Positions 929-38,758 of a stretch of DNA of 41,965 nucleotides are shown here, piece after piece. This stretch comes from Paracoccaceae bacterium. GTDB taxonomy: Bacteria; Pseudomonadota; Alphaproteobacteria; Rhodobacterales; Rhodobacteraceae. The stretch covers positions 16,733-58,697 of the forward strand of contig PAQV01000023.1 of the NCBI GenBank assembly GCA_002709405.1, written 5' to 3'. Each line of letters starts with the position of its first letter. Positions within the stretch are counted from its first letter, which is position 1. The notes beneath the pieces were generated by a model. It had not been told where the DNA came from. It saw only the letters and a list, made by a program, of their open reading frames with translations, and searched no databases. The translations under genes were made by a program, and so were the position numbers.

Positions 929-2239
929 ATGACGTCCGGCATGACGACAGGGATAGGAACTGGGGCACGTACTGGGATAGCGACAGGGATACATTCGGGG
1001 CCACATGCGGGGCCGGTTTCGGGGCCAGAGACCGGGGCTCGATCCGGTCCAGGTCCAGGTCCTGAAACCACACCCGCCAGGGCAGGGGGCTCGGGAGGAC
1101 GCAGCCTGCGCTGGCTGGTCTCGACCCACCACCTGCACGTCTGGGCCGGATCCGAGGTGGTCACGCTGGAAATGCTGCAGGCGCTGAAAGAGCGCGGCCA
1201 CCAGGTGACCTTCTACTGCCGTTTTCCCGGCGGCCAGCTACTGGAGGCCTCGGGCCTGGGCAAGCTGCCGGTGATCACCGACCCCGCCTGGATCCGGCTG
1301 GAAGATTACGACGTGGTCTATTCGCATCACCAGACCCCCACCGCCTTCCTGGCCCGCCAGGACCCCGATGTCCTGCTGGGGGAAAACCGGCCGGTGTTCA
1401 TCTACAACCACCTGTCGCCGTTCGAGCCGTTCGAGTTCCCCTCGCCCTTCAGCGAGGCGGTGATGGCCGACATCATCCTGGCCAACTCGCCCGAGACCCG
1501 GACCAAGCTGGCCGGCTTCGGGCCCGAGTTCGCCGATGCCACCCTGTTTCCCAACCCCGCGCCCCGGGGCTTTGCCGCGCCGCAGCCGGAACTGGACCCG
1601 ACCTGGATGACCCGGGTGCTGTCGGTGTCCAACCACCTGCCCGACGAGCTGGCCCATGCCTTCCGCATTCTCGAAGGCCAGGGTGTGCAGGTCACCCGGC
1701 TGGGGGTGGACGGCGAGGCCCGCCGGGTCACGCCCGCCGACATCCAGACCCATGACGCGGTGGTGACCATCGGCAAGACGGTGCAATATGCCATGCGCTC
1801 GCACCGGCCGGTGTTCTGCTACGACCAGTTCGGCGGGCCCGGCTGGCTGTTGCCCGAGCGCATGCGCGCGGCGGCGGCGGCGAATTTCTCGGGCCGCTGC
1901 ACGCCGGGGCCCCGCAGCCCCGAGGCGCTGGCCCGCGAGCTGGCCCGGGGCTTTCCCGAGGCCGCCCGCCAGCTGCCCGATCCCACGCCCTACCGGCTGG
2001 AAGACCATCTGGACCGGCTGGAGGCCCGCATCGCCAAGCTGCGCGCCGGCCGCTCGCGCCCGCGGGTCGATCCCGACCTGTTCATGGTCCAGTGCCAGCG
2101 CGAGGAACAGTTCTACGGGCTGCTGGACCGCCAGTATGCCCATGGCCGCGGGCTGGAGGAAAAGGTCCGCGCCCAGGGCGACCGGCTGCGCGGCTACGAG
2201 GAAACCCTGGGCATCCGCCCGATGGCGGCAGGGGCCTGA
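929..2239 (+). CDS. GT4-like glycosyltransferase with a repeat-expanded N-terminus
   Basis: The protein (about 436 residues) looks like a cytoplasmic nucleotide-sugar glycosyltransferase with a GT-B fold. After residue ~58 it starts with a typical first beta strand (LRWLVSTHH) followed by a Gly/Ser-containing loop (WAGSEVVTLEML) and a helix. Later segments (IILANSPETRTKL, LFPNPAP, VLSVSNHLPDELAHA) resemble GT4 acceptor/donor boundary regions. I do not see the full E-x7-E motif, so the family call is moderate. The first ~50 residues are low-complexity Gly/Thr/Pro units encoded by a 12-bp tandem array. The start is uncertain: ATG 929 has GGGAGG only 3 bases upstream, and TTG 914 and ATG 941 are alternatives. 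It lies between rfbB and a sulfotransferase gene. Confidence 0.72.
   Translation: MTSGMTTGIGTGARTGIATGIHSGPHAGPVSGPETGARSGPGPGPETTPARAGGSGGRSLRWLVSTHHLHVWAGSEVVTLEMLQALKERGHQVTFYCRFPGGQLLEASGLGKLPVITDPAWIRLEDYDVVYSHHQTPTAFLARQDPDVLLGENRPVFIYNHLSPFEPFEFPSPFSEAVMADIILANSPETRTKLAGFGPEFADATLFPNPAPRGFAAPQPELDPTWMTRVLSVSNHLPDELAHAFRILEGQGVQVTRLGVDGEARRVTPADIQTHDAVVTIGKTVQYAMRSHRPVFCYDQFGGPGWLLPERMRAAAAANFSGRCTPGPRSPEALARELARGFPEAARQLPDPTPYRLEDHLDRLEARIAKLRAGRSRPRVDPDLFMVQCQREEQFYGLLDRQYAHGRGLEEKVRAQGDRLRGYEETLGIRPMAAGA
950..1069 (+). repeat. Ten-copy 12-bp degenerate tandem array (in frame)
   Basis: Ten consecutive 12-base units, most beginning GGG or GGGG (for example GGGATAGGAACT, GGGCCGGTTTCG), run without a register slip. 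They encode four-residue units such as TGIG, TGIA, SGPH, SGPE and PGPE at the N-terminus of the glycosyltransferase. The units are diverged from one another, which suggests an old expansion. Confidence 0.9.
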
Positions 2240-2243
2240 GCCG

Positions 2244-3026
2244 ATGCCGATCACGCGGATCTCGGGCAAGCTGGTGTGTTTCCTGCACGTGCCGCGCTGT
2301 GGCGGCACCTCGATGGAACATTACCTGGTCGCGCGCTTCGGCCCGCTGGCCTTCCGCGATCCGCGCTACCTGGAACAGCCCGGCCCCGCCCGCTGGACCC
2401 GCACCGCGCCCCAGCACGTGGCCGCCGCCGACCTGGAGCGGCTGTTCCCGCCGGGCTTCCTGGACGAAAGCTTTGCCATCGTGCGCGACCCGCTGGCCCG
2501 GCTGACCAGCGTCTTCCGCTTCCAGCGCGACGTCGAAGAGCGCATCAGCCGGGGCCGCAGCTTCGAGGCCTGGCTGGACAACCAGGTCGAGAAGATGGCC
2601 CAGCAGCGCTTCGTGTTGGACAACCATGTCCGCCCGATGACCGAGATGGTCCCCGAGGGCGCCCGCATCTTCCACCTGGAACAGGGCATGGACCCGGTGA
2701 TCGCCTGGCTGGACGCGTTGGCCGGGGATACCGCGCCCGAGGTGGTGCTGAAGGAAAAGAACAACTACGCCAAGCGCCTGGACTGGGCGGGGATCGAACC
2801 GGGCCCGGCCCCGGTGATCACCGACCACGTGCGCGCGATCCTGGCCGAGGTCTATGCCGGGGATTACGACCGGTTCGGCTATGCGCCGGACACGGCAGAG
2901 GATGGCCCCCGCGGCGGAGGAGGGCGCGGGGGCCAATCTGATACGGCGTCCGATAAGCCGTCCGATACGCCGCCTGATACGTCGTCTGACACACAGGCCG
3001 CAAAGAACCCCGCTACACAGCCCTGA
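2244..3026 (+). CDS. Sulfotransferase family 2 protein
   Basis: Predicted PAPS-dependent sulfotransferase that would place sulfate on a sugar hydroxyl. The 5'-phosphosulfate loop is PRCGGTS at residues 17-23, directly after a hydrophobic strand. The 3'-phosphate motif is RDPLARLTS at residues 81-89, followed by FRFQ, as in the Sulfotransfer_2 family. Length is 260 residues, normal for bacterial members. The ATG at 2244 lies 4 bases after the stop of the glycosyltransferase, so the two are probably cotranscribed. The C-terminal tail (about residue 215 onward) is disordered and carries a 12-bp in-frame repeat. The acceptor cannot be told from the sequence. A rhamnan- or mannan-type sulfation is an inference from the neighbours. 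Confidence 0.85.
   Translation: MPITRISGKLVCFLHVPRCGGTSMEHYLVARFGPLAFRDPRYLEQPGPARWTRTAPQHVAAADLERLFPPGFLDESFAIVRDPLARLTSVFRFQRDVEERISRGRSFEAWLDNQVEKMAQQRFVLDNHVRPMTEMVPEGARIFHLEQGMDPVIAWLDALAGDTAPEVVLKEKNNYAKRLDWAGIEPGPAPVITDHVRAILAEVYAGDYDRFGYAPDTAEDGPRGGGGRGGQSDTASDKPSDTPPDTSSDTQAAKNPATQP
2937..2996 (+). repeat. Five-copy 12-bp tandem array in a sulfotransferase tail
   Basis: Five 12-base units in frame encode SDTA, SDKP, SDTP, PDTS and SDTQ. They lie in the last 30 residues of the sulfotransferase, after its catalytic domain. Confidence 0.9.
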
Positions 3027-3062
3027 ACGAACGCAAAGACCACAGATCGGAGAGCCCTCCTC

Positions 3063-3932: not shown

Positions 3933-3945
3933 GGCCCCAACCGCG

Positions 3946-4764: not shown

Positions 4765-4791
4765 CCTCTTGCAACCCAAGGCCTATTCCCC

Positions 4792-5706
4792 GTGACCCAT
4801 CCCCGCCTCCTGCGCTACGCCGGGCTCAGCCGCAAGACGCTTGCCGCCAATGCCGAACACGGCTTTGCCGCGCGCTATGCCCTGTGCCATTTCGGGGCCA
4901 ACGCGGTCTACAGCTTCATCCCCAAGAACGCCTGTTCGACCCTGCGCGTCAGCCTGGCCCTGGCCAACGGGGCGATTGGCGGGCTGGAGCAATGGACCTG
5001 GATCCACCACAACAACCCCACCTTCCGGGCCAGCCTGCGCGACCTGGCCACGGCGCGGTTCACCTTCGTCATCCTGCGCTGCCCCCATGCCCGGCTGGCC
5101 TCGGTCTTCCTGAACAAGATCGTCGGGCGACAGCCGGAATACTGGCAGCTGTTCCGGGCCCTGGGCGACGGGATCGATCCGGCCAGCTTCACCTTTCGCG
5201 ATTTCGTCGAGATGGTGACCGGCGACAAAGACGATGATGCGGACGAGACGGGCAAAGACGCCATGGACGACCCCATGGACGACCCCATGGACGGGGGCGC
5301 GGGCCTGCGCCTGAACGAACATTGGTGCCCGCAGACCGACTTCCTGGTCTATGAAAACTACGATGCCTGGTACGCGGTGGAACGGATGGCCGAGGCCCGG
5401 GCCGACCTGGCCGACAGGATCGGGCTGGACCTGGTCGACGCCCGCCCGCTGACCCGCCATGGCACCGACCGGTTCACGCTGCTTGATGCAGCCCCCGGGG
5501 GCGGCTCCTTCGCCGACATGTCCCTGGCCGAGCTGGCCGGGCTGCAGGCCCGGGGCCAGGCCCCGGCCCATGCGGCGCTTTACGACGACACCCTGGCCCG
5601 CGCGGTGGCGCGGACCTATGCCGAGGACCTGGCGCTTTACGCGTCCAGGATCGGCCCCGACACCCTGACATTTCCAACCATAGAAATTGACCCCAAGGAG
5701 ATCTGA
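4792..5706 (+). CDS. Carbohydrate sulfotransferase-like protein
   Basis: A second predicted PAPS-dependent sulfotransferase, different in type from the one at 2244. IPKNACST at residues 43-50 is the 5'-phosphosulfate loop and LRCPHARLAS at 95-104 corresponds to the 3'-phosphate motif, with Cys where Asp is more usual. NEHWCPQ at 175-181 matches the H-W-x-P-Q signature of chondroitin/dermatan-type (CHST8-14) sulfotransferases, so the acceptor is likely a polysaccharide. An Asp/Met-rich insertion at residues ~145-170 contains a 12-bp repeat and appears to be an expansion in a loop. The GTG start gives 304 residues. Its last codons overlap the ribosome site of rfbA. Confidence 0.82.
   Translation: MTHPRLLRYAGLSRKTLAANAEHGFAARYALCHFGANAVYSFIPKNACSTLRVSLALANGAIGGLEQWTWIHHNNPTFRASLRDLATARFTFVILRCPHARLASVFLNKIVGRQPEYWQLFRALGDGIDPASFTFRDFVEMVTGDKDDDADETGKDAMDDPMDDPMDGGAGLRLNEHWCPQTDFLVYENYDAWYAVERMAEARADLADRIGLDLVDARPLTRHGTDRFTLLDAAPGGGSFADMSLAELAGLQARGQAPAHAALYDDTLARAVARTYAEDLALYASRIGPDTLTFPTIEIDPKEI
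5260..5295 (+). repeat. Three-copy 12-bp tandem array in a sulfotransferase loop
   Basis: Three near-identical 12-base units with core CCATGGACGAC encode the acidic MDDP repeats in a presumed loop just before the HWCPQ motif. The preceding bases (Asp/Lys-rich) may be older decayed units. Confidence 0.85.
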
Positions 5707-7952: not shown

Positions 7953-8834
7953 ATGCAAATTCCCGCCACATTCGTCATGGGCGCAACAGGTCGCCTGGGT
8001 CATGTGCTGCGCCGGCACTGGGCTGGTTCCGCCCCCGGGATCGGGGGGGGAATCGGGGGGGGACCTGTCCTCTGGGGCGCGCGTGAGCCGGGGCCGGGGC
8101 TGACCCGCTGCGATCCGCTGGGCGATCCGGCCGGCCTGGCCCGGGCGGCGGGGGGCGCGCGGGCGCTGCTCTGCCTGGCCGGGATCACCCCGGCGGCGGC
8201 CGCGCGGGGCGCCGATTTCGGCGATGATGCCCGGCTGGCCCTGGCCGCGCTTGGGGCGGCCGAAACGGTGGGCGCGCATGCCTTCGTCTGTTCCTCGGCC
8301 GCCGTCTATGGCCGGGCCAGCGGTACCGGAGGGCTCTTGCGAGAGGATGACGCCCTTACCCCCGCCGCGCCTTACGGAGAGGCCAAGGCCGCGATGGAAG
8401 CTGCGGTGCTGGAGCGCGCGGCGCGGACGGGGCAGGGGGTGACCATCCTGCGCATCGGCAACGTGGCCGGGGCCGATGCGGCCCTGGGAGGCTGGCGGCC
8501 GGGCTTCACGCTGGATGCCTTCCCCGATGGCACGACGCCGGCGCGCAGCTATATCGGCCCGGGTATGCTGGCCTCCGTGCTGGGGGCCTTGATGGGGGCC
8601 CTGATGGAGGCAAGGGATCTGCCCCAGGTGCTCAACATCGCCCAGCCGGGGGCCGTGGAGATGGGCGCCCTGCTGACGGCTGCCGGTCTGCCCTGGGCCA
8701 CCCGGCCCGCGCCCGAAACGGCCATCGCCCGGGTGGCCTTCGAAACCGGCCGGCTGACCGCACTGGTGCCGGTGCCTCCGGCCACGCCACAAGGGCTCGT
8801 GGCGGATTGGCGGGCGGACCAGGCAATTGGCTGA
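7953..8834 (+). CDS. Extended SDR, UDP-sugar epimerase/4-ketoreductase-like
   Basis: NAD(P)-dependent sugar-nucleotide short-chain dehydrogenase. GATGRLG at residues 10-16 is the cofactor motif, SSAAVYG supplies the catalytic Ser, and YGEAK (Tyr141, Lys145) is the catalytic pair. At 293 residues it fits the WbpV/WreQ group of 4-ketoreductases better than the longer epimerases. The gene is followed by a small initiating sugar-phosphate transferase, and that pairing is typical for reduction of a 4-keto-6-deoxy-HexNAc. A Gly-rich insertion at residues 29-38 is coded by a G-run repeat and falls just after the first helix. No Shine-Dalgarno sequence is evident. GalE-type epimerase is the alternative. 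Confidence 0.82.
   Translation: MQIPATFVMGATGRLGHVLRRHWAGSAPGIGGGIGGGPVLWGAREPGPGLTRCDPLGDPAGLARAAGGARALLCLAGITPAAAARGADFGDDARLALAALGAAETVGAHAFVCSSAAVYGRASGTGGLLREDDALTPAAPYGEAKAAMEAAVLERAARTGQGVTILRIGNVAGADAALGGWRPGFTLDAFPDGTTPARSYIGPGMLASVLGALMGALMEARDLPQVLNIAQPGAVEMGALLTAAGLPWATRPAPETAIARVAFETGRLTALVPVPPATPQGLVADWRADQAIG
8036..8072 (+). repeat. G-run repeat coding a Gly-rich insertion
   Basis: Two GGGATCGGGG-like units separated by about 15 bases encode GIGGGIGGGP inside the SDR, in a position where family members have a short loop. It is in frame, like the other intragenic arrays of the window. Confidence 0.6.
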
Positions 8835-12139: not shown

Positions 12140-12611
12140 GTCCCGCACCCTTTGTCTGAATGGCCCCCCCGGGCCGATGAGCGGACCATGCAAAGGGCCG
12201 GGGACGGGAACCGGCGCAGGAATGTGGCCGCCTGGCGGCGCTTCGCTCGGGTTTGTCGTGAATTGTTTGGGCCAGAATCAGGGGCCTGAATCGGGGCCGG
12301 GTGTGGGGCCAGAATCGGGGCAGACCCGGGAATGGCCATGAGACGGGCCGGGCAAGAGCGGGGCAGGGCAGGGGGCACGCCCGGCGCGCAGGATCCCATG
12401 CCGCCGGGGGGCCGCTTTCAGCCCCGCCTTTGCCTTCTGCGAGGCGCGGGGGGCACGGCCGCGCACGCTTTCCGGGTCATTCGATCAGGGGAATATGGAA
12501 ACGGTGTCCGGATTGTGTCTAAGGTATTGAGGACAGTGGGAGGCTTCCGGTCATTCATCCGGGCGTGTCGTAACGATCAAAACGAATAGAAGCGGGGACC
12601 GCCGGAGTATT
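12140..12611. other. Divergent intergenic region with a 12-bp array
   Basis: This 472-base stretch separates the RTX gene (minus) from the wbqC-like gene (plus). It contains no convincing gene. Bases 12269-12328 are a tandem array, and 12337-12440 is G-rich. Bases 12475-12600 are less GC-rich and should hold the wbqC promoter. I cannot place -35/-10 boxes with confidence. Confidence 0.6.
12269..12328. repeat. Five-copy 12-bp tandem array, intergenic
   Basis: Five 12-base units of the type GGGGCCNGAATC follow without register change. They lie 130 bases upstream of the RTX start codon, outside any gene I can support. This is a noncoding array whose period is nevertheless a multiple of three. 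Confidence 0.85.
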
Positions 12612-13295
12612 ATGGGCCGGATCGCAATCATGCAGCCGTATTTGCTGCCGTATCTGGGGTATTTTCGGCTTCTGGTGGATGTCGACGCCCTTGTTCTGGG
12701 GGATGTGCAACAATTTCCCCGCCGTGGCTGGGTGAATCGCAACCGGCTGTTCGACGACCGGGGCCAGCTGGGCTGGCTGACCCTGCCGCTTGCCCCCGCG
12801 CCGCTGTGCTCCCGGGTGAGCGAGATCCGCCTGGCCCAGAATGCCCAGCTCACGCTGGACCGCAACATGGCCCGATTCCATGCCTGCCGCTGCCCCAACC
12901 CGGTCACCGCCCCGATCCTGAAGACCCTGACCGACCTGCAGGACACCCCTCTCGACGTGATCGAACGGCTTTTGGTCCAGGTCTCGGGCGCGCTTGGGCT
13001 GTCGACCCCGATCCTGCGGCAATCGTCCTTCCACGATGCCGATTACGCCGCCGGGCTGACGGCCACCGAACAGATCGCCGAGGTCTGCCAGGCCCTGGGC
13101 GCGCGCGAATATGTCAATGCTCCGGGCGGGCGGGCGCTGTACCAGGCGGCCGATTTCGAGCGCCACGGGCTGACGCTGCTGTTCCACGATCCCTACCCGG
13201 GGCCGGTGGTCAGCGTGCTGCAACGGCTGGCCGACGATCCGATCGAGGACCTGCGCCGCGAGGTGGTCGAGACCACCACGGTCCAGCCGGGATGA
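12612..13295 (+). CDS. WbqC-like family protein
   Basis: Member of the WbqC family, found in O-antigen and polysaccharide loci and thought to act in amino-sugar modification. The family's biochemical role is not settled. The protein is 227 residues and begins with the diagnostic IAIMQPYLLPYLGYFRLL. Further typical segments are DVQQFPRRGWVNRN(R)L and SVLQRLADDP. GGAG precedes the ATG by 4 bases. The stop codon overlaps the start of the DegT-like gene (ATGA), so the two products are made together and probably act on the same sugar. Confidence 0.88.
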   Translation: MGRIAIMQPYLLPYLGYFRLLVDVDALVLGDVQQFPRRGWVNRNRLFDDRGQLGWLTLPLAPAPLCSRVSEIRLAQNAQLTLDRNMARFHACRCPNPVTAPILKTLTDLQDTPLDVIERLLVQVSGALGLSTPILRQSSFHDADYAAGLTATEQIAEVCQALGAREYVNAPGGRALYQAADFERHGLTLLFHDPYPGPVVSVLQRLADDPIEDLRREVVETTTVQPG

Positions 13296-14521
13296 GCGGC
13301 CCAGTCGGTCAGGATCCGCCAGGTGAAGATCAGGCGTGTGAAGATCGGGCGGACAAAGATCGGGGCCCGGATCAACCGAACCAGGATCGGGCGCCCTTGC
13401 TGGGCGGCTTCTTCGGGCTGGAGCTGCCGGACCCGGACCGGACCGGCGACGCGGGCGGGCTGTGGCGGCACTGGCGGGCGGATGAGGGCCGGGCCTTTGC
13501 CAATGCCAGCTCGGCCCTGGCGGCGCTGATCACGCATCTGCAGCCGGGCGCGGTCTGGTTCCCGGCGTTCCTCTGCGCCGAATTCGCGGGGGCCGCCGCG
13601 CCCGGGCTGCGGCGCTTCTTTGCCCTGGATGACGACCTGGCCCCCGATCCGGCCACGCTGAGCCCCGCGCCGGGGGACCTGGTGGTGGCGGTCGATTACT
13701 TTGGCCGGGCCCCGGGGGAATGTACGGGAGAAGGTTCGGGAGAAGCTTCGGGGGGCTGTTCGGGCACGACCTGGCGGGACTTCGTCGCCGCCCATCCACA
13801 GGTCACCTTCGTCGAGGATTGCGCCCAGGCCATCGACACCGGCCAGCCGCCCTGGGGGGACTGGCGGCTTTACAGCCCGCGCAAGATCGCCGGCATTCCC
13901 GATGGTGGGATCCTGGTGCCGATGCGCGGCCAGGCCCTGCCGCCCGCGCCCGTGCCCCCTGCCTTCGCCCAGGTCCAGGCCGCGCTGGCCCCGAAACTGG
14001 CCCGGCTGGAAGCGCCGGCCCAGAATGCCCTGTGGCACCCGCTGAACCAGGCCCACGAGGCCGCCCATGCGGTGACCGACCTGGGCATGAGCACCTTTTC
14101 CCGGCGGCTGGCCGGGCTGATCGACGTGCAGGCCATCTCGGCCCGGCGCCACGCCAATTTCCGCGCCCTGGCCGGGCCTCTGGCCGATTGGGCGGTGATC
14201 GCCGATCCCGATCCGGGCTTCGTGCCCTTCGGCTTTCCGGTGCGCCTGGCCCCGGGGCAGCGCGATGCGGTGGCCGGCGCGCTTTACGCCCGGGGCATCT
14301 TTCCGGCCGTCCACTGGCGCGACCTGCCGGTGCCCCGGGACCCGGGCGGGCCCGCAGGTCGGACAGCAGATTGGACGGCGGATTGGATGGCGGATTGGAC
14401 GGCGGATTGGACGAGGGCCGACACCTTCCTGACCCTGCCCTGCGATCAGCGCTGGTCCGTCTCTGACATGGGCCGGATGGTCGATGCCTTCACCGCAGCA
14501 TTGGACACACGCCTTGGTTGA
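13292..14521 (+). CDS. DegT/DnrJ/EryC1/StrS-like PLP aminotransferase family protein
   Basis: Likely pyridoxal-phosphate sugar aminotransferase or a relative. Family-like parts of the 409 residues are NASSALAALITHL, PGAVWFPAFLCAEFA, FVEDCAQAID with the cofactor Asp176, and SPRKIAGIPDGG with the candidate PLP Lys198. The usual His/Tyr-rich context before the lysine is altered, so activity is not certain. The start overlaps the wbqC stop. Three in-frame tandem arrays enlarge the protein: an N-terminal Asp/Glu/Arg-rich extension, a Gly/Ser insertion around residues 143-158, and four ADWT units near residues 359-374. Outside these, the length matches the family. Confidence 0.72.
   Translation: MSGPVGQDPPGEDQACEDRADKDRGPDQPNQDRAPLLGGFFGLELPDPDRTGDAGGLWRHWRADEGRAFANASSALAALITHLQPGAVWFPAFLCAEFAGAAAPGLRRFFALDDDLAPDPATLSPAPGDLVVAVDYFGRAPGECTGEGSGEASGGCSGTTWRDFVAAHPQVTFVEDCAQAIDTGQPPWGDWRLYSPRKIAGIPDGGILVPMRGQALPPAPVPPAFAQVQAALAPKLARLEAPAQNALWHPLNQAHEAAHAVTDLGMSTFSRRLAGLIDVQAISARRHANFRALAGPLADWAVIADPDPGFVPFGFPVRLAPGQRDAVAGALYARGIFPAVHWRDLPVPRDPGGPAGRTADWTADWMADWTADWTRADTFLTLPCDQRWSVSDMGRMVDAFTAALDTRLG
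13308..13388 (+). repeat. Degenerate 15-bp array at the N-terminus of the DegT-like gene
   Basis: About five imperfect 15-base units with core AAGATCGGGC encode charged units (GEDQ, CEDR, DKDR, PDQP, NQDR). They lie before the first conserved segment of the enzyme, so they look like an extension. The register is less regular than in the 12-bp arrays. Confidence 0.65.
13718..13765 (+). repeat. Four-copy 12-bp tandem array in the DegT-like gene
   Basis: Four 12-base units of the type GAAGNTTCGGGA encode GECT, GEGS, GEAS and GGCS. They sit in a loop between two conserved segments (VAVDYFG and VTFVEDCAQA). Confidence 0.88.
14366..14413 (+). repeat. Four-copy 12-bp tandem array coding ADWT units
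   Basis: Four units GC(A/G)GATTGGA(C/T)G are nearly identical, so this is one of the youngest arrays here. They encode ADWT, ADWM, ADWT and ADWT near the C-terminus of the DegT-like protein. Confidence 0.93.
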
Positions 14522-15660: not shown

Positions 15661-15699
15661 TCGGGGGATGACAGGGGACTAATCGGGGACTGATCGGGG
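15656..15699 (+). repeat. Four-copy 11-bp array starting at a stop codon
   Basis: Four 11-base units of the type ACTGATCGGGG begin on the last codon of the glycosyltransferase and repeat its stop. TGA or TAA occurs at 15658, 15669, 15680 and 15691, which covers all three reading frames. Confidence 0.9.
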
Positions 15700-16726: not shown

Positions 16727-16762
16727 GTGATCGGGGGGCAAATCGGGGCGCATCAGGGGGGC
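16727..16762. repeat. Short degenerate ATCGGGG repeat
   Basis: Three ATC(G/A)GGG-containing units spaced 10-12 bases lie in the divergent region upstream of the acyltransferase. They resemble, but do not copy, the array at 15656-15699. Confidence 0.6.
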
Positions 16763-17665: not shown

Positions 17666-17742
17666 CGGGGCCTGATGAACGGGGCCTCGCTAGTGATGGG
17701 GCCTAATGACGCGACCGAGTGACGCGACCGAGTGACGGGCCC
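17660..17742 (+). repeat. Six-unit array with nine stop codons
   Basis: Units of 13, 14, 17, 13, 13 and 13 bases, each ending GGGGCC or GCGACC, begin at the methyltransferase stop. TGA, TAG or TAA occurs at 17663, 17673, 17676, 17691, 17694, 17704, 17707, 17720 and 17733, in all three frames. It runs into the convergent end of the GT61 gene. Confidence 0.88.
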
Positions 17743-23661: not shown

Positions 23662-24944
23662 CGGGTCGGGCCTTCTGTCGGGGGCTTTGCCGGGCAATCG
23701 GTGGGGCCTGCGGTAGGATGTACGGTAGGATGTACGGCGGGCTGTACGTCTGGCCGTGCGCCCGGCTGGCGGCCGATCCGGCCCGAGATCATCCAGCAGA
23801 CAAAGCAGGCCCCGCCCCACAGCGTGGCCGGGATATACAGGGCCAGGTGAACGAGAACCGCAAAGGCCACGGCGGCCAGTTCGGGATTTCCGAAGGCCTG
23901 GGCCGTCTGCATGACGAAGTAATGGAAGGTGCCGATATAGCCCGGGGTCGAGGGCAGCATGGTCGACAGCGTGCCCACCGGCATGGCCACCCAGGCGGCC
24001 ATCGGGGCGGTGATGTCGGGCAGGGCCCGGGCGATGGCATAGAAGACGCAGGCCTCGAAGGTCCAGGCCAGCAGCGACCAGCCCATCAGCCTCAGCATGC
24101 GCGCCCGGTCCGACAGGGTGGCCAGGGTCTGGAAGACATGGGCGACCTGCGGGCGCAGGCGGTCGGTCAGGCCGGGCGCGCGGCCGGCAAGCTGGCGCAG
24201 CAGCCACAGGACGGGCGGTTCGAACAGGCCGGGCAACAGCAGGACCAGGGCCACGGCGCAGGCCACCAGGGCCAGGATCCCGGCGCTGGCCCCCGACAGG
24301 GCGTGCAGGCCGGCCGGTCCGGTGGGGACCAGGGTCGCGGCAATACCCAGGGCAAAGGCCAGGGCGACGATCAGCGACAGCAGGTCCAGCAGCCGTTCGA
24401 CCAGCAGCGTGGCCAGCACGCGGGCCGTCGGCACGCCCAGCCAGCGGGAAAAGGCCACCCCGCGCAGCACGTCTCCGGCCCGGAAGGGCAGCACGTTGTT
24501 GGCCGCGATCGAGGTCATGAACGGCACCGAGCAGCGTGCCCAGCCCAGGTCCGGGTTGTGGCAGGCCAGCATCAGCCGCCAGCGCCAGATCCGGCAGGCA
24601 AAGGCCAGCCCGAAGGCGCCCACCGCGGCCAGCACCCAGCGGGCATCGGCCCGGCCCACCGCCGCGCGGAAATCGTCCAGGGGGATCGACCGGAAGACCA
24701 GCCACAGGAACAGCGCCGACAGGGCCAGGCCCAGCACCAGCCCCACCGCCTTGCGGGGGACAGCCGGGGAGGCGGGCAAGAGAGACGCGGCAGGACCTGC
24801 CCCCATATCGGGGCCCAGATCAGGGCCCAGATCTGGGATGGCACCAGGACCACCCGGCACCCCGGACAGCGCGCCCGCCGAAGCATACGGCAGGGCGGCG
24901 CGGGCAAACGGCCGGGCGGCGAAAGGGCTGGTGACCTTGATCAT
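23658..24944 (-). CDS. LPG-synthase TM-region-like (UPF0104) membrane protein
   Basis: Multi-pass inner-membrane protein of about 428 residues related to the lysylphosphatidylglycerol synthase transmembrane region (flippase-like, UPF0104). Diagnostic segments are RIWRWRLML, NNVLPFRAGDVLRG, LATLLVERLLDLLSL and the late PVGTLSTMLPSTPGYIGTFHYFV. There are about eight membrane helices. Such proteins often accompany membrane glycosyltransferases and are thought to move lipid-linked substrates. The start is uncertain: ATG 24944, 24977 and 25046 are all in frame. The N-terminal cytoplasmic part (PDLGPDLGPDMG) and the C-terminal tail are both built of 12-bp tandem units. It heads the three-gene operon. 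Confidence 0.82.
   Translation of the reverse strand: MIKVTSPFAARPFARAALPYASAGALSGVPGGPGAIPDLGPDLGPDMGAGPAASLLPASPAVPRKAVGLVLGLALSALFLWLVFRSIPLDDFRAAVGRADARWVLAAVGAFGLAFACRIWRWRLMLACHNPDLGWARCSVPFMTSIAANNVLPFRAGDVLRGVAFSRWLGVPTARVLATLLVERLLDLLSLIVALAFALGIAATLVPTGPAGLHALSGASAGILALVACAVALVLLLPGLFEPPVLWLLRQLAGRAPGLTDRLRPQVAHVFQTLATLSDRARMLRLMGWSLLAWTFEACVFYAIARALPDITAPMAAWVAMPVGTLSTMLPSTPGYIGTFHYFVMQTAQAFGNPELAAVAFAVLVHLALYIPATLWGGACFVCWMISGRIGRQPGARPDVQPAVHPTVHPTAGPTDCPAKPPTEGPTR
23667..23750 (-). repeat. Seven-unit 12-bp array coding the membrane protein's C-terminal tail
   Basis: Seven four-residue units (DVQP, AVHP, TVHP, TAGP, TDCP, AKPP, TEGP) form the last 30 residues after the final membrane helix. 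The middle units are close copies and the outer ones are diverged. Confidence 0.85.
24803..24838 (-). repeat. Three-unit 12-bp array near the membrane protein's N-terminus
   Basis: Three 12-base units of the type CCAGATC(A/T)GGGC encode PDLG, PDLG and PDMG before the first membrane helix. Confidence 0.8.
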
Positions 24945-25343
24945 GGGTCCGGTCTGCCGCAACAGCCGGTCCCGCATCGGGCCCATTTGGGGTATTTTTG
25001 GGGCGCGTCCCAAATCAGGCCCCAAATCGGGTCCCCAACCCGACATCAGGCCACCCCCGAACACACACCCCGACCCCAGCCCCGAACCCAGCCCGGCCCC
25101 CGTTTTTCCGGCCCCCGTTTTCCAACTGCCAGCGGGTCCGTCCCGGCAACATTCCCCGCCCCCGGGCGGAATTGGCCGTCTCTTGTGCAGGGTCGGGAAA
25201 CATCCTAGGACTCTCTGACGGATGCACTTGGACATGGCCGGATATTGGGATACTGCCTGACCCGGCCGCCAGATGTCGTGTGACTGCATCCCGGCGAACG
25301 TACGAGTGGGCACAGAGAACTGAAGACAGGCGAAAGTACTCCC
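24945..25343. other. Divergent intergenic region with tandem units
   Basis: This region lies between the membrane-protein gene (minus) and a sulfotransferase gene (plus). Bases 25007-25042 are three 12-base units (GNCCCAAATC(A/G)G), and 25089-25125 is a C-rich 15-16 bp duplication. GGGGTATTT at 24989-24998 matches part of the terminator core, without the paired arm. A possible promoter for the sulfotransferase is at 25228-25255. No gene is supported. Confidence 0.55.
25228..25255 (+). promoter_or_regulatory. Possible promoter of the sulfotransferase at 25344
   Basis: TTGGAC at 25228-25233 and ATACTG at 25250-25255 are spaced 16 bases apart in a locally AT-richer stretch, about 90 bases before the ATG. 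The -10 match is weak, so the call is tentative. Confidence 0.3.
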
Positions 25344-26216: not shown

Positions 26217-27212
26217 ATGTCCCGCGAGATCGTCCTGCACATCGGCCGCCACAAGTCCGGCACCTCGTCGCTTCAGCACTTCCTGGGACCGCGGCGGCCC
26301 TATCTTGAACGGCTGGGCATCCTGTACCCCTGGACCGGCTGCGAGAACCGCATCGCCCACCATGCCCTGGCCGATGCCTGCAATCCCAAGCGCACCGACG
26401 ACTCCGCCATCGGGCCGATCATCGACGGGCTGCGGCTGGAAATGGGCCTGCAGCACCACATGGTGCTGCTGTCCAGCGAGGCGTTCCAGAACATCGGCGA
26501 CCTGTCCCGCCTGGCCACGGTGATCGAGGCCCTGGGCATCACGCGGATCCGCGTCATCTGCTACGTGCGCGAACACCTGGATTACGCCATCTCGGGCTAT
26601 CGCCAGATGGTGCACAACCAGAAGCGCTTCATGACCTTCGACACCTATGCCCGGCGCTTCCCCGATCCCGGCGGCTTCATCCGGCGCTGGCAGGACCTGG
26701 GCGAGATGACCCTGAAGTGGTACGACCGCGACAAGCTGAAGGACGGCGACGTGATCGCCGATTTCTGCGAGCTGGCGGGGATCGAACCGGGCGAGATCCC
26801 GCAGGGCGACCGCAACCCCTCGATCGGGGGCAACCTGCTGATCTACAAGCTGGCGACGAACCGGCTGGACATGGATGCGGGGGGCTATGACCTGCTGCGC
26901 ACCCTGGCCAGCGACCATGCCCCGTTCCGCAGCGCCTTCCACGTGTCCGATGCCGCGGCCGAGGACCTGCGGGCCGACAGCGCCTACAATGCGCGGCTGT
27001 TCGGATTGCTGGGCAAGACCGCCCTGAAATCCTGGGCCGGCTCCCCTGCCCTGCCCGACATGGACACGCTGGAAAGCGACCTGAAGACGATCATCAAGGC
27101 CCTGCCCGCCGCCCGCCGGCCGAATGCCAAGGCCCGCGCGGCGCTGATGGCCGAAATGGAAGGGGCCGAGGACTGGCTGCGCCTGGCCGAGCCGGACGAC
27201 ATGCCCGCCTGA
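26217..27212 (+). CDS. Sulfotransferase-like protein
   Basis: Predicted sulfotransferase or P-loop relative of 331 residues. HIGRHKSGTSSLQHFL (HKSGTSS at 12-18) matches the 5'-phosphosulfate loop, and YVREHLDYAISGYRQ at about 116-130 fits the 3'-phosphate motif with Glu in place of the usual Asp. FDTYARRFPDPGGF and WYDRDKLKDGDVIADFCELAGI match the C-terminal part found in sulfotransferases of polysaccharide loci. No clear ribosome site precedes the ATG. The stop codon starts an 11-bp tandem array. It is convergent with the GT61 gene at 27348. Confidence 0.8.
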   Translation: MSREIVLHIGRHKSGTSSLQHFLGPRRPYLERLGILYPWTGCENRIAHHALADACNPKRTDDSAIGPIIDGLRLEMGLQHHMVLLSSEAFQNIGDLSRLATVIEALGITRIRVICYVREHLDYAISGYRQMVHNQKRFMTFDTYARRFPDPGGFIRRWQDLGEMTLKWYDRDKLKDGDVIADFCELAGIEPGEIPQGDRNPSIGGNLLIYKLATNRLDMDAGGYDLLRTLASDHAPFRSAFHVSDAAAEDLRADSAYNARLFGLLGKTALKSWAGSPALPDMDTLESDLKTIIKALPAARRPNAKARAALMAEMEGAEDWLRLAEPDDMPA

Positions 27213-27271
27213 ACAGGGCCTGAAACCCGCCTGAACGGCGTCTGAGCAGCACCTGAAACACGGCTGTTCGG
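27206..27271 (+). repeat. Six-copy 11-bp array starting at a stop codon
   Basis: Six exact-length 11-base units of the type CGCCTGAACAG begin in the last codons of the sulfotransferase. TGA lies at 27210, 27221, 27232, 27243 and 27254, so all three reading frames are closed within 25 bases. The sixth unit has lost the TGA. Confidence 0.92.
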
Positions 27272-29247: not shown

Positions 29248-29546
29248 GCGGGACTCCGGGTCAGGAATTGTCGCCGAAAACGGCGTGGTATCTGGGGTGG
29301 ATCAGGACAGGAGCGCGGCGGTCATACACGGCGCGGCGCGGCGCCGCCGCCCTGCGGTCGATGCGGGCGGCCGGTGTCATGACGTCTGCCGTCGCGCTGT
29401 CCAGGGTGGCATGACTATGGCCATCCATGGCCCGTCCTTCTTGTCGTTGGCCGTCTCGTCGGCCGTCTTGTCGTTGGCCCCTGGGGGCCGGAAACACGCG
29501 GGCCGTGCCGGGGGCATTCCCGGGACGGCCGGGGGCAGGCCGGGGC
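29248..29546. other. Gap between manC and the sulfotransferase
   Basis: About 300 bases without a supported gene. It contains a short repeat at 29431-29476 and GC-rich self-complementary stretches (near 29320-29345 and 29520-29560) that may act as hairpins after manC. Confidence 0.5.
29431..29476. repeat. Degenerate CTTGTCGTTGGCCGT repeat
   Basis: Three units of 12-16 bases with core GTCGTTGGCCGT lie head to tail in the gap downstream of manC. Confidence 0.75.
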
Positions 29547-34200: not shown

Positions 34201-34477
34201 CAAGGTGCTGGCCGCCCTGGCCCATGGCGTGCCCTGCGTGCTGACGCCGACGGCGGCCGAGGGCATCGGCGTGCGTCACGAGCACGACTGCATGATCGCC
34301 ACCTCGGCGATGGAATGGTGCGACGCGATCGACGCGCTGGTCAACGATCCCGAGCTGTGGCAGCGCATGTCCGACAATGCCCGGGCCTACGTGGGCCACA
34401 CCTTCTCGTTCGAGACCGGGCGCAGCCTGATGCGCACCGCCTTCGAAACGGTGGACCTGTACTCGCCCGAGATCTGA
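31277..34477 (+). CDS. Large bifunctional GT2-GT4 glycosyltransferase
   Basis: A 1066-residue protein joining two catalytic modules. Residues 1-430 are of unknown, beta-rich character (FRAGLAIHRAAGRLIL, ETYGHTLIMTASEAGNYRFL-like strands) and may bind glycan. Residues ~433-690 are a GT2 domain (VSIVIPAHNK, VDDASTDETTE, LLNNDVEV as the DxD-like site, FEDTDFSFKIREAGY). Residues ~695-1066 are a GT-B/GT4 domain (FLGNYHHHPNTEAV, APLLSGAGIKGKVLAALAHGVPCV, GIGV, with Glu in the family position). The TTG at 31277 has AAGGA 8 bases upstream and is the best start; GTG 31256 has no such site. Two sugars may be added in succession. No other gene follows closely. Confidence 0.87.
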   Translation: MNKTIDLPDSVAQIVVSNGTVLANVTEDLLDSGLGLGIGTDQLRFEPVAEDDKDLPDLMVEFRPRFDPEDMAETLEPAGMPVQKLCGVFVNKMKDWALANRNTVQLAFMTPDQPCEIALKAGMRLPAHTAPLTFRAGLAIHRAAGRLILRLHDLKSGKTDTRSFAFDPTRIGGAEMNKYLNVEHTIPATSSEVEVSLSVAFDSFQGTEPGQTAFFFIADPHISRTVREEDLEGALILEGPGTAAGTYVWAKAPMPGYLAGNSEMTLLDGDDSYPLVAGSGRRVNVTEDYGHTLIMTASEAGNYRFLIDGQFAFTQHLGPDPAPVRMPAQFLTGATRWLVVTDPAGTEQLYANTILLPRMLTPHDVLKTESSAPFPGPLFAAASHRYAALRAQLAAGLTAEEQAQVAYCLDVVEGGFENVKLKPLAFPEYDTPDVSIVIPAHNKVEVTYLALASLLLAHNEASFEVIVVDDASTDETTELEEIVSGITVIHNAQAQRFIRACNAGAAQARGKYVMLLNNDVEVTNGFLDALIDAFDRFPKVGLVGSKLLYPDGRLQDAGGIIWGTGNPWNYGNGQNPWDPRFCYARQADYLTGAAMMTTKELWDQVGGLSSYLEPMYFEDTDFSFKIREAGYRTYFVPSSIVYHFEGMTSGTDTSSGFKRYQEVNRPKFKRRWAAAYARFGDQGVKPDLEKDRGITGRVLFIDYATPRPDRDAGSYAAIQEIKLVQSLGYKVSFLPRNLAHLGSYTEELEKMGVEMIYAPFYLSVDEYLDKHAKDFDAFFITRFYVARDVIGRLRRLAPQTRILFNNADLHFLRELRAGLANDDPARIEAARQTREIELDVMTQADVVLSYNDTEHAVIQSHTDGAVKIAKCPWVVEMPDSTPPREGRAGLSFLGNYHHHPNTEAVMWFARQVMPLLQPGHPDLEFIMYGSAMPDEVKGLANEQIKAEGFVKEISDAYDQHLIFVAPLLSGAGIKGKVLAALAHGVPCVLTPTAAEGIGVRHEHDCMIATSAMEWCDAIDALVNDPELWQRMSDNARAYVGHTFSFETGRSLMRTAFETVDLYSPEI

Positions 34478-34492
34478 CGGGGTCTGACGGGG
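34473..34492 (+). repeat. Perfect 10-bp duplication on the stop codon
   Basis: TCTGACGGGG occurs twice in a row, the first copy containing the stop of the fusion gene. TGA at 34475 and 34485 falls in two different frames. Confidence 0.85.
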
Positions 34493-34742: not shown

Positions 34743-35000
34743 TCAGTTGGCCGGAGCGCTGGTGGTGGTCGTGGTGGTGGTCGTGCTGTCGTCGTCGCCA
34801 CCGGTGGCGATCACGACGATCAGGAAGCCGGCCGCCGTTGCACCGATCACGGTGCCCGCGCTCAGCCCGTCAAGACCCTGGCCCGACAGCGGGGCCGGCA
34901 CGGTCGGTGCGGGCGCAGGCGTCGGGGTGGCTTGTGCGGCGGCAAGCGACGGAAGGGCTGCCATGGCAGCGGCGGCGATAATCGCGGATATCGTCTTCAT
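34743..35000 (-). CDS. YjbE/GfcA-like small exported Thr-rich protein (copy 1)
   Basis: An 85-residue protein with a Sec signal peptide (MKTISAIIAAAAMAALPSLAAAQ). A Pro/Ala linker and a second hydrophobic helix (GTVIGATAAGFLIVVIA) follow, then GGDDD and a run of eight Thr. This build matches the YjbE/GfcA proteins encoded with YjbF and YjbH in exopolysaccharide operons. Their role is undefined. The ATG at 35000 has GGAG about 9 bases upstream, which is better than the in-frame ATG at 35015. It is preceded by its own intergenic region with a TTAAC pair, so it may have a separate promoter. Copy 2 lies just upstream. Confidence 0.85.
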   Translation of the reverse strand: MKTISAIIAAAAMAALPSLAAAQATPTPAPAPTVPAPLSGQGLDGLSAGTVIGATAAGFLIVVIATGGDDDSTTTTTTTTSAPAN

Positions 35001-35024
35001 GCTCGAAATCTCCAAAAGGCATGC

Positions 35025-35198: not shown

Positions 35199-35235
35199 GA
35201 CCGTGTCAGGCGCGGCCCGAAGGCCGCGCGCCACC

Positions 35236-35484: not shown

Positions 35485-35566
35485 GCTCCAAATCTCCTTG
35501 GGGGTCATTTGATCCAGACCTACCTTGGACCATGTTCAATTTCAACGGGATCCGGTCCGATCCTCG

Positions 35567-35598
35567 TGCAATGCGGCACGTTTTTGCGCTGCATTGCA
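35567..35598. promoter_or_regulatory. Inverted repeat TGCAATGCGGC / GCTGCATTGCA
   Basis: 11-base arms at 35567-35577 and 35588-35598 pair at 10 of 11 positions, with a 10-base AT-containing loop. It lies about 85-115 bases upstream of the copy 2 start and 60 bases past the yjbF-like stop. It may be an operator or an attenuator-like hairpin. There is no T-run after it on the minus strand, so a simple terminator is less likely. Confidence 0.55.
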
Positions 35599-35660
35599 GA
35601 AATGTCGCCATTTTGGCTGCCCAGAACCTGCACAGGACCTGCCGCGGGGGCAGGCCCGGA

Positions 35661-36395: not shown

Positions 36396-38758
36396 TGCCA
36401 GAACCTCACCGACTGGTCGTCGAGCGCCTTCTTGTGGGCCGCCCGGATCTGCGGATAAAGCCGGCCCGGCACAACCAGCCGCTGGCCGCCATCGCGGGTG
36501 ATCGGCGTGATCGTGGTGCCGACGGTCTGGCGGCTGGGCTGGCCCAGGACCCAGTTGACCGGGATCGAGAAGCGGATGCCCTTGTCGAACGAGCCTTCGC
36601 CGAAATCCTCGGCCGAGACATTGGTCAGCGTGAAGAACGCGCCCACCCGCCAGCCGTTGTCGAAGATCCGGTCCATCGAGAAGGTCGCCCCCCAGTCGCC
36701 GGCCAGGTAGCGCCCGGCGTCGACCTGGCCGATCAGGCCCGGTCCGAACTCGTAATAGGCCGAGGCATGGCCGGTGGCGATCTGGTAGTCGTACTGGCCG
36801 AAGCCGAACCGCTGGTCCTGGTCCCGCTGGGCCACGTAGTTGGCTTCAATCCCCAGCCCCAGCGGGCTGTTGACCGGCTTCCACAGCAGTTCCGTCGAGA
36901 TCCCGCCGAACATCTGTTCCAGGTAGCCAAAGGTCGCCCGGGCATACAGATCCTTGCCCGGCCGCCATTGCTTGGCCACGTAGAGGTTGCGCATGGTCAG
37001 GTCGTACTGGGCATATTCCGCCCAGTCGGACCGCACGTGCGGCAGGACCGAGTTCGAGGGCCGCCCGCCGTCGAGATCCCCGAACAGCTTGTAGCGCAGC
37101 GCGCCCGACGCGATCCAGCCGGGGGCCGGGCGGTAGGTGCCGTTCAGCTCCAGGCCCACGTCCAGGCGGATCGGCTTGTCGGGGTCAAAGTAGCTGGGCT
37201 CGAAATAGGGTTGCAGCGAGTAGGAAAAGCGCGGGAACAGCGCCTCGTTGCTGACCGCCTCGAGGCTGAGCGGCGGCGCGTCGGAATAGCCGATCAGCGC
37301 GGTCATCGCCCCGGTGGCATCGGTTTCGTATTCGACCACTTCCAGGTCCGAGCGCCGGATCGTCGCCCGGTTCACGGCCATGCCATTGGACTGGGGCACG
37401 ATGTGGAAGGTTTCGACCGACGGCGGCAGGGTCTGGGCCATGGCCCGGGCGACCCGGCCGATGGCGTTCATCTCGGGCCAGTAGCGCCGGTTGTTGTAGC
37501 GGACCTCGGCGGTGTGGGCCGAAACGGTGAAGGTCTCGACCGTGATGCCCTGGGGATCAAGCACGCCGATCAGGTTGTCGCGCAGCGCCGGGGGCACCTC
37601 GCGGCTGCCGGCCCAGGATGTCGACCAGGCCTCGGGATTGGTGCGCGGATCCTGGCGCACCAGCACCGGCTGCGGGGCCGGCACGGCGACGGGCACCGGC
37701 GGGGCCTTGGGGTTGCCCTGGATCTGGATGTTGAAACCCACTTCCGAGCCGTACAGGTAGTACCCGCCGATGCGGATCGCGTTGTTGACCTTGTATTCGA
37801 CGCCGAAGTTGATCGGCGAGCGGCGGTCGAGGATGCCCATGTCCTGGACCTCGGTCACGTAGGCATCCGAGGAATATTCGACCTTCACGCCGAACGTGTC
37901 GTTGGGCCGCCACTCGATCCCCGCGAAGGGCGCAAAGGGGCCGCGGAACCACTGGTCATAGGCCACCTGGCCGCCGGTCGAGCTGGGGTCATAGGCCGGC
38001 CGGTCGCCGTAGCCGTTGATCGATCCGTAAGATCCCAGACGGCCCCAGCCCAGGCCGCCGGTGACCTTCAGCGTGCCGCTGCCCCCCAGCCGCGAGGGCG
38101 GCAGGGAAAAGGTCTTGGTGGCGGCGATGTATTCGCCGGCCGAAATCCCGGTGCCCACGAAATCCTGCAGGCCCAAGGTCACCGCCGGCAGCCGGTCGGT
38201 TTCCTTCAGCAGGCGGAAGCGCAGGTCGAAGCTGCGGTCGTAATAGGTCTCGAAGCCCGAGAAGTTCGCATTGGCGAAGGAATTGTAGCGGAAGCTGCCC
38301 GACACCCAGGGCAGGGCCTGGAAGGTCAGGGTATAGCGCCCGATGCCCCCGAACCAGGACACCCCGGCATTGAACTGGCCATCCGGCGCGGCCTCGCCCG
38401 AGGGCATGTCGATCAGGCCCGGCGCGCTGTAGAAGTTGAAGCTGGGGCCATCGGGATATTGCGCGATGGTCGGCGCCGCTTCGGGCGTGCCCGGCAGGGC
38501 CAGCGGATCGGTCGGCCCGGTCACGTAGGCCGTGGGGTCGGTTTCCCAGCCCAGCTGGGCCTGCGCCCCGGTGCCCATCACGCCGACGGCTGCCGAACAC
38601 AGGCCCACCGAACATAAAGCAGTCGTGCGCAAGATCGCGCGCAAACCTGTCGTACACAACGTCGTGCGCAAACCTGTCGTGCGCACAATCGCGCGCATAC
38701 TTGTCGTACGCAGGGCGGCCATCCATCCGGCCCCGTGCCCGACCCTGTGCCCGGTCAT
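36392..38758 (-). CDS. YjbH/GfcD-like outer-membrane exopolysaccharide protein
   Basis: Predicted outer-membrane beta-barrel protein of about 788 residues for polysaccharide export. YjbH-type segments are SAPGLIDMPSGEAAPDGQFNAGV, PWVSGSFRYNSF, LGWGRLGSYGSI, YKVNNAIRIGGYYLYGSEVG and the final WVLGQP/RDGG barrel strands. The start is uncertain: ATG 38758, 38722 and 38698 and GTG 38809 are in frame. The signal-peptide region is enlarged by a 27-bp repeat (RTTGLR-type units), yet still ends in a cleavable-looking GTGAQA|Q. It heads the yjbH-yjbF-yjbE order, reversed relative to E. coli yjbEFGH. Confidence 0.87.
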   Translation of the reverse strand: MTGHRVGHGAGWMAALRTTSMRAIVRTTGLRTTLCTTGLRAILRTTALCSVGLCSAAVGVMGTGAQAQLGWETDPTAYVTGPTDPLALPGTPEAAPTIAQYPDGPSFNFYSAPGLIDMPSGEAAPDGQFNAGVSWFGGIGRYTLTFQALPWVSGSFRYNSFANANFSGFETYYDRSFDLRFRLLKETDRLPAVTLGLQDFVGTGISAGEYIAATKTFSLPPSRLGGSGTLKVTGGLGWGRLGSYGSINGYGDRPAYDPSSTGGQVAYDQWFRGPFAPFAGIEWRPNDTFGVKVEYSSDAYVTEVQDMGILDRRSPINFGVEYKVNNAIRIGGYYLYGSEVGFNIQIQGNPKAPPVPVAVPAPQPVLVRQDPRTNPEAWSTSWAGSREVPPALRDNLIGVLDPQGITVETFTVSAHTAEVRYNNRRYWPEMNAIGRVARAMAQTLPPSVETFHIVPQSNGMAVNRATIRRSDLEVVEYETDATGAMTALIGYSDAPPLSLEAVSNEALFPRFSYSLQPYFEPSYFDPDKPIRLDVGLELNGTYRPAPGWIASGALRYKLFGDLDGGRPSNSVLPHVRSDWAEYAQYDLTMRNLYVAKQWRPGKDLYARATFGYLEQMFGGISTELLWKPVNSPLGLGIEANYVAQRDQDQRFGFGQYDYQIATGHASAYYEFGPGLIGQVDAGRYLAGDWGATFSMDRIFDNGWRVGAFFTLTNVSAEDFGEGSFDKGIRFSIPVNWVLGQPSRQTVGTTITPITRDGGQRLVVPGRLYPQIRAAHKKALDDQSVRFWQ
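38622..38717 (-). repeat. Three-and-a-half-copy 27-bp array in a signal peptide
   Basis: Units at 38622-38648, 38649-38675, 38676-38702 and a partial unit to 38717 each consist of a 12-base and a 15-base subunit starting (G/A)TCG(T/C). On the minus strand they code nine-residue units of the type RTTGLRAIL, directly before and into the hydrophobic core of the YjbH-like signal sequence. Confidence 0.9.

Follow-up and report, generated by a model that had tools for sequence, protein, structure and literature searches.

An excess of 10-16 bp tandem duplications in Marinibacterium samples and a hotspot for them on a plasmid-type contig

Introduction

Why would one polysaccharide locus hold dozens of short tandem arrays whose units are unrelated to each other? 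The question is raised by a stretch of 41,965 nucleotides from a Marinibacterium genome (the window), which comprises bases 16733-58697 of the 58,697-base contig C22. A reading of this DNA from the sequence alone had noticed arrays at 18 positions, and had suggested that they reflect a general process of local duplication, with selection setting where duplications are tolerated. We report that the window is a hotspot, and not a sample of a uniform process, and that perfect tandem duplications of one size class, 10-16 bp, are in excess in samples from the rest of the window's genome and from a second species.

Among the sources of small insertions, short tandem duplications are an important one. 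Vaughn and Bennetzen reportedly described, in 2014, small tandem duplications in eukaryotes that arise by fill-in end joining or patch repair. We know of no bacterial lineage that makes one narrow size class of duplication in excess, and our literature search (titles and beginnings of abstracts of open-licence papers) found none on such a size class in bacteria.

We compared the genome of the window's own species (G000, a draft assembly of 103 contigs totaling 5.39 Mb) with G001, which we took as Marinibacterium anthonyi, and with G002, from a third species of the genus. Sampling came to about 706 kb for G000, 660 kb for G001, and 161 kb for G002.

The arrays are not due to chance and their units are unrelated

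With Tandem Repeats Finder (TRF) at a minimum score of 30, each of the 18 positions has an array either on it or no more than about 60 bp away. At 17 of these, the score is at least 40; the remaining array, at 16730, scores 39. Counting non-redundant arrays with a period of at least 8, the window has 35 at a score of 40 and 21 at a score of 50. As a correction to the earlier list, the array at 27204 has a period of 22, and the arrays with a period of 27 are at 24240 and 38622.

The window contains 13 near-exact tracts with a lag of 12 bp, versus means of 0.15 in dinucleotide shuffles and 0.55 in shuffles of local triplets (40 shuffles each). There are also five tracts each for periods of 9 and 15. 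So the density of arrays is not reproduced in dinucleotide-shuffled sequence, and chance is ruled out as their source. Base composition alone is ruled out by the local triplet shuffles, although GC content accounts for much of the variation in TRF density. Among 28 hand-picked TRF arrays, 12 of the 378 pairs share a 9-mer; random segments matched in length gave a mean of 10.3. This is the level expected by chance, so the sequence-only reading was correct that the units have no sequence in common and that they look like local duplications. The same result argues against an interspersed or mobile repeat family, and a shared motif is ruled out.

By our own gene calls, which are from a simple custom hexamer caller, 16 of the 35 arrays are intergenic. 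Many of the arrays do lie at gene ends, in tails, and in gaps, as had been described, but to say that they are never in a catalytic core goes too far: a strong array at 5257-5293 is inside the envelope of a Sulfotransfer_2 domain, and weaker arrays at 12785, 24240, 29819, and 37241 are also inside Pfam envelopes. Where relatives could be aligned, length differs by no more than 1 bp at 12785, 29819, and 37241, so these arrays may be chance or old.

Perfect duplications of 10-16 bp are in excess

Because TRF scores favor longer periods and mix old and young arrays, we counted perfect tandem duplications. In the intergenic DNA of the genus, perfect duplications are above shuffles at 9-16 bp and there are none at 17-26 bp. 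The intergenic counts in the sampled genus are 11 at 10 bp, 7 at 11 bp, 7 at 12 bp, 4 at 13 bp, 2 at 14 bp, 5 at 15 bp, and 1 at 16 bp; in coding sequence, 19 of 24 are 12 bp. So the size class is 10-16 bp, and not the uniform 11-13 bp that had been proposed. Duplications of 7-8 bp are near the shuffle expectation (the background is too high there to exclude a small excess), and duplications beyond 16 bp are scarce, with two of 17-26 bp in 1.30 Mb.

Considering only stretches with GC content of at least 0.62 (those below were dropped from both sides, here and in the permutation), we found 44 perfect duplications of 10-16 bp in 1.144 Mb from 58 Marinibacterium loci, versus 15 in 1.769 Mb from 74 control loci. 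This Marinibacterium set is without C22, C79, and the homologous plasmids (contigs C8 and C14). In the same loci, duplications of 6-9 bp are about equally common (988 per Mb in Marinibacterium versus 1076 per Mb in controls; Fisher p = 9e-9, with the size class picked after looking), so the excess at 10-16 bp is specific to size. A permutation of 10-kb pieces (112 versus 154), which treats the pieces as exchangeable, gave p = 1 in 20,001, which is the floor of that test. By genome, there were 19 in 544 kb from the rest of G000 and 25 in 500 kb from G001, versus 8.5 per Mb in controls. In other words, the samples of both genomes have about 4-6 times the control density of the 10-16 bp class, with no excess at 6-9 bp. 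The genus has 176 per Mb in noncoding DNA (controls, 34 per Mb) and 16.2 per Mb in coding sequence (controls, 4.6 per Mb).

Named loci under 8 kb were left out of the counts of perfect duplications. L084, which is from G000 contig C11 (a relative of the hotspot plasmid) and has 3 duplications, was dropped from the permutation only; it was kept in the genus-versus-control count and in the comparison of C22 to the rest of G000 (below), and its inclusion slightly favors our proposal. G007 was outside the controls for the C22 comparison and for the permutation, and was added to the genus-versus-control count where its GC content allowed. We did not use the split into coding and noncoding for the family set because the gene caller broke down on low-GC genomes.

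C22 is a hotspot

C22 has 10 perfect duplications of 10-16 bp in 58.7 kb, versus 20 in 622 kb from the rest of sampled G000 (5.3-fold, p = 1.3e-4). Six of the 10 are coding (120 per Mb) and four are noncoding (452 per Mb). The density of TRF arrays (score 40, period 9-30, with named loci under 10 kb left out) is 83.5 per 100 kb in C22 and 24.7 per 100 kb in the same 622 kb, a 3.4-fold difference. These local differences do not support a process that acts uniformly, and a uniform density across the genome is ruled out.

In TRF arrays per 100 kb, the M. anthonyi chromosome has 26.0 (400 kb), its homologous plasmid has 31.2 (80 kb), and the G002 plasmid has 66.7. Across the family, we found 18.0 in 20 polysaccharide loci with YjbH and 19.5 in 20 chromosomal stretches (400 kb each), so a general trait of polysaccharide loci is ruled out; named ManC loci have 15.1 (71 of 80 loci, those of at least 10 kb). 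A general trait of rhamnose plasmids is ruled out as well: stretches of rhamnose-gene plasmids from seven other genera (from PLSDB) contain just 1 perfect 10-16 bp duplication in 338 kb. An effect of plasmid versus chromosome as such is unsupported, as 20-kb stretches from seven other M. anthonyi contigs range from 0 to 45 arrays per 100 kb. Among stretches with GC content of 0.66-0.70, three pieces of C22 have 80-91 arrays per 100 kb, and 58 other stretches have a mean of 31 and a maximum of 70.

We also noticed a second dense stretch in G000 (L082, G000:C9:1-20000), with 65 TRF arrays per 100 kb, including 44-bp and 14-bp arrays; its genes look hydantoinase- and ABC-transporter-like. And on another M. 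anthonyi contig, a protein (L111, 14342-16075) has an N-terminal tetrapeptide array, DPRTDPRTDPR, which is of the same kind as the N-terminal 12-bp repeats of the window.

The hotspot is on a plasmid-type contig

Judging from its genes, C22 is a plasmid-type contig, of a rhamnose/exopolysaccharide type with putative RepA and ParAB. In the left part of C22, Pfam identifies RepA (PF10134), ParA, and RfbC, and there is a ParB-like gene (its ParB_N match, at 23.8, is below the curated cut-off of 26.3). The window's genes include rfbB, rfbD, rfbA, a Wza-like gene, glycosyltransferases, sulfotransferases, ManC, a YjbH-like gene, and a polysaccharide epimerase. (RfbB was called by Pfam; RfbD and RfbA were named from their translations and from matches to annotated plasmids, and some other names likewise rest on reading translations and on plasmid matches such as CP031592.1.) The closest named record that we found for C22 is plasmid CP031592.1 of M. 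anthonyi, with 103,854 bases. C22 itself is a draft contig; its M. anthonyi counterpart, which is contig C8 of G001, was deposited as a plasmid. The counterpart in G002 is a syntenic 61-kb contig, and the alignment wraps across the ends of that contig, so it is probably circular. By gene content, C22 resembles the Roseobacter RepA biofilm plasmids with a rhamnose operon. A first contig search with the YjbH-like protein as the query confirmed no relative.

G000 might have two related exopolysaccharide plasmids (contigs C22, C79, and C11). C79 matches C22:6-13133 at 98% identity (98.1% over 13 kb) and is near-identical over 1-12 kb; its identity to parts of C22:56531-58697 is 86-89%. Between C11 and other parts of C22, identity is 75-89%.

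Gain of length and the reading frame

The main arrays of the window are listed below, with the strand in brackets (a dot where none is assigned), TRF scores where given, and the length of the aligned interval relative to other genomes.

991-1062 (.): 12-bp array (ACATTCGGGGCC-like) and GGTCCA repeats, either upstream of a GT4-like glycosyltransferase or at its N-terminus; TRF 46 and 34; interval 95 bp longer than in G001
2937-2989 (+): 12-bp array, SDTx tail of a sulfotransferase, outside the Pfam domain; TRF 64; interval 75 bp longer than in G002
5257-5293 (+): 12-bp array, DDPM repeats, an insertion within the Sulfotransfer_2 envelope; TRF 67; perfect duplication; interval exceeds that of G001 by 54 bp and that of G002 by 69 bp
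8040-8063 (+): perfect 12-bp duplication, N-terminal part of an epimerase-like gene; TRF; interval just 3-6 bp longer than in relatives
8581-8611 (+): 12-bp duplication, GALMGALM, in the same epimerase-like gene; exceeds both G001 and G002 by exactly 12 bp
12269-12321 (.): degenerate 12-bp array, intergenic by our gene calls; TRF 55
13323-13351 (.): 15-bp duplication, either in the gap separating two called genes or at the second gene's N-terminus; TRF 51; interval 75 bp longer than in G002
13713-13752 (+): 12-bp array, GEGS-like loop; TRF 52; interval 25 bp longer than in G002
14361-14413 (+): 12-bp array, TADW repeats; TRF 85; without a counterpart in the G002 alignment
15674-15699 (.): 11-bp intergenic array; TRF 45; the aligned place in G002 (44976) has a different 12-bp duplication
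17707-17737 (.): perfect 13-bp intergenic duplication; TRF 62
23598-23629 (-): perfect 15-bp duplication, N-terminus of an amine-oxidase-like gene, outside the domain
23711-23748 (-): 12-bp array, C-terminal tail of an LPG_synthase_TM protein (TRF, Pfam)
24802-25121 (.): four arrays (12, 12, 12, and 15 bp), upstream of the called LPG_synthase_TM gene (TRF)
27204-27245 (.): 22-bp duplication at a gene's stop codon; TRF 63
29439-29545 (.): two intergenic arrays (12 and 11 bp); TRF 54 and 43
34473-34492 (.): perfect 10-bp duplication at a stop codon; relative to G001, the interval has 68 extra bp
34760-34785 (-): perfect 12-bp TGG-rich duplication, predicted small open reading frame with a Thr-rich tail; a similar TGG-rich stretch is present in G001
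38622-38753 (-): 27-bp and 12-bp arrays, 5' end of the yjbH-like gene, upstream of its domain (Pfam YjbH from residue 124); TRF 112 and 40; interval 125-227 bp longer than in G001, G002, and G007
39000-39049 (.): 10-bp and perfect 12-bp duplications, intergenic; for the 12-bp one, the interval is nearly equal in G001
41272-41313 (.): 13-bp intergenic array (CCGTGATCACACC); TRF 63

Of 32 array places, 12 could be bracketed by aligned sequence from G001 and 18 by aligned sequence from G002. The interval in C22 was longer by at least 9 bp for 6 of the 12 arrays versus G001 and for 9 of the 18 versus G002 (two of these nine are in one interval), as compared to 12-13% of control intervals. It was shorter by at least 9 bp for no arrays versus G001 and for three versus G002. 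So arrays often sit where this lineage has extra length, which goes part of the way to showing recent gain.

Among perfect duplications, 21 of 24 in coding sequence but just 12 of 37 in noncoding DNA have a length that is a multiple of three (p = 2e-5). This filter supports the earlier suggestion that selection sets which duplications are tolerated. It also explains the apparent uniformity at 12 bp: mutation yields lengths of 10-16 bp, of which 12 and 15 pass the filter of the reading frame.

A proposed mechanism

Averaged over 55 of 61 perfect duplications, the match continues past the two full copies for 2.0 nt, versus 0.76 nt by chance, which would be expected if short homologies assist duplication. 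(The other 6, with extensions of at least 8 nt, are near-third copies and were set aside.) There is no extension in 17 of the 61, and later slippage could also lengthen the match.

An unusual polymerase or mismatch-repair gene set had been suggested as a cause, but we found no defect among five functions: MutS, MutL, RecJ, the large subunit of exonuclease VII, and DNA polymerase I are present in all three species. The presence of the MutS_V and MutL_C domains in all three argues against a mismatch-repair-deficient hypermutator. Ku (PF02735) was not found in G000 or G001. It was found in G002 and in the control genomes G049, G052, and G053. Of these controls, G049 has a single perfect 10-16 bp duplication in 100 kb, and there are none in 20 kb of G052 or in 100 kb of G053.

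We also noticed that stretches of the 5'-exonuclease part of polA overlap at two contig ends of G000 (C4:1-518 and the end of C52; L013 and L247). They are 89% identical over 518 bp without gaps, and we found only one polymerase domain, so this could be an oddity of the assembly, a fragment, or a second copy.

We propose that microhomology-assisted slippage of 10-16 nt is raised in this lineage and that its products are filtered by selection; on balance, we think this is probable. A mutational process would copy a 10-16 nt stretch twice, in independent events. Slipped-strand or flap/template misalignment would be the step, with 0-5 nt of microhomology to assist it, and repeated rounds would build arrays of 3-4 copies. 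We favor such misalignment because of the extension of the match past two copies, because the tested repair functions are present, and because Ku was not found in G000 or G001. The process would have a size limit and would be raised in this lineage, as represented by the samples of G000 and G001. On top of this, the rhamnose/exopolysaccharide plasmid in G000 (and perhaps the one in G002) has several times more of these duplications, which hints that the process hits this plasmid hardest. Within genes, selection would then retain multiples of three, frequently in tails and loops; between genes, it would retain any length.

A more specific version of this proposal is that Marinibacterium, or two of its species, has a lineage-specific process that prefers one replicon and whose molecular ruler, of about 10-16 nt, would be something like a repair patch, a primer, or a flap re-used as a template. 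Because 6-9 bp duplications are not raised, such a process would be distinct from ordinary slippage. The excision patch of UvrABC is about 12-13 nt and the primer made by DnaG is about 11 nt, which would fit the ruler, but these are candidates only, and we hold the ruler itself tentatively and with considerable doubt.

Alternative explanations

Several results weigh against our proposal. The 10-16 bp class was taken from spectra of the same data, so the later p-values are optimistic, and the control genomes, with about 8-140 kb each, are thin per genome. The G002 chromosome has no perfect 10-16 bp duplications in five stretches (100 kb); the G002 plasmid has 5 in 61 kb, which is not significant versus the pooled genus (p = 0.08); and the homologous plasmid of M. 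anthonyi is not hot (1 in 80 kb). The density of TRF arrays rises with GC content (rho 0.69 over 170 stretches outside C22), and one ManC locus, from Ancylobacter vacuolatus, another GC-rich alphaproteobacterium (L190, GC content 0.701), has 93 arrays per 100 kb, so TRF density alone does not separate the window from everything else. The evidence for recent gain of perfect duplications is mixed: in 24 bracketed comparisons from the plasmid and the chromosome, 9 intervals were longer by at least 9 bp, 11 were within 8 bp, and 4 were shorter by at least 9 bp, and one 12-bp coding pair (GATGCCCAGCAG) is common to G000 and G001. Within alignable blocks, the plasmid shows no rise in indels of at least 6 bp (1.5-1.8 per kb, versus 0-2.5 per kb for the chromosome), and each comparison has just 0-2 indels that look tandem. 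(We set aside the between-species indel spectrum as evidence, as it is uninformative at 16-21% divergence. Over 1-12 kb of their shared block, C22 and C79 differ by about 5 substitutions and not by a single indel, and the remaining differences are at the ends of the block; with so few substitutions, the missing indels say nothing.) Finally, among MutS, MutL, RecJ, the exonuclease VII large subunit, DNA polymerase I, and Ku, we found no responsible gene.

So we also considered that the arrays arise by ordinary slippage, at a normal rate, and survive under weak constraint on a fast-evolving polysaccharide plasmid. The mixed evidence for gain moved weight from our proposal toward this alternative, which we consider possible but unlikely. 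It fits with the dependence of array density on GC content in all samples, with the dense arrays in GC-rich polysaccharide loci (L165 as well as L190), with the many arrays in tails and gaps, and with levels of substitutions and indels in alignable plasmid DNA that are like the chromosome's. However, it does not explain why the noncoding density of perfect duplications is higher on C22 (452 per Mb, from 4 events) than elsewhere in the genus (176 per Mb) or in controls (34 per Mb) while the 6-9 bp class is not raised, or why the rhamnose-gene plasmids of seven other genera have so few.

The hotspot is on a plasmid with genes for glycosyltransferases and sulfotransferases, and array lengths are species-specific, which would be expected if length variants were selected, as at contingency loci, to diversify enzymes for surface polysaccharides. 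But the copies are few and often imperfect, 16 of the 35 arrays are intergenic, their units are unrelated, and the same size class is raised outside the plasmid, so we view selected hypervariability as improbable. Fill-in end joining of staggered breaks with overhangs of 10-16 nt, which we view as very improbable, would account for the size class, as it fits short overhangs or patches. In mouse stem cells, small tandem duplications arise by fill-in and Ku80-dependent joining (PMC8355091). But Ku was found in G002 and in three control genomes (G049, G052, and G053), not in the two genomes with the excess. This argues against Ku-dependent joining, which is largely refuted; a Ku-independent pathway is possible. 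We give the least credence to arrays of binding sites (iterons or regulator sites with a spacing of about one helical turn) or to a mobile repeat family. A period of 10-13 bp is near one helical turn, and several arrays are upstream of genes, but 9-mers are shared at a random level (12 versus 10.3 pairs), arrays are also found inside genes, and an aligned intergenic site has different units in two species (15674 in the window and 44976 in G002).

Significance and comparison to known systems

If the counts hold for whole genomes, then comparing Marinibacterium to its close relatives could reveal the gene or the condition that sets the length of 10-16 nt, and would show how in-frame tetrapeptide tails and loops enter polysaccharide enzymes. 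If the ruler process is true, then array density would read out where the process acts.

Like the Roseobacter RepA biofilm plasmids, C22 has RepA (PF10134), ParA, a ParB-like gene, rfbC/B/D/A, and polysaccharide genes on one contig; it differs from the rhamnose-gene plasmid stretches of other genera in that those have only the 1 perfect 10-16 bp duplication in 338 kb. The small tandem duplications of eukaryotes, as described in PMC8355091, are also short, perfect copies, sometimes with microhomology, but the fill-in duplications described there differ from ours in that Ku was not found in the two affected genomes. With bacterial minisatellites or variable-number tandem repeats, which arise by slipped-strand mispairing, the arrays share head-to-tail copies, lengths that are multiples of three within genes, perhaps some microhomology, and differences in length between species. 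Here, instead, there are many unrelated arrays of 2-4 copies, in one size class, concentrated on one plasmid, and, as compared across species, that size class is raised in samples of two of them without a rise at 6-9 bp.

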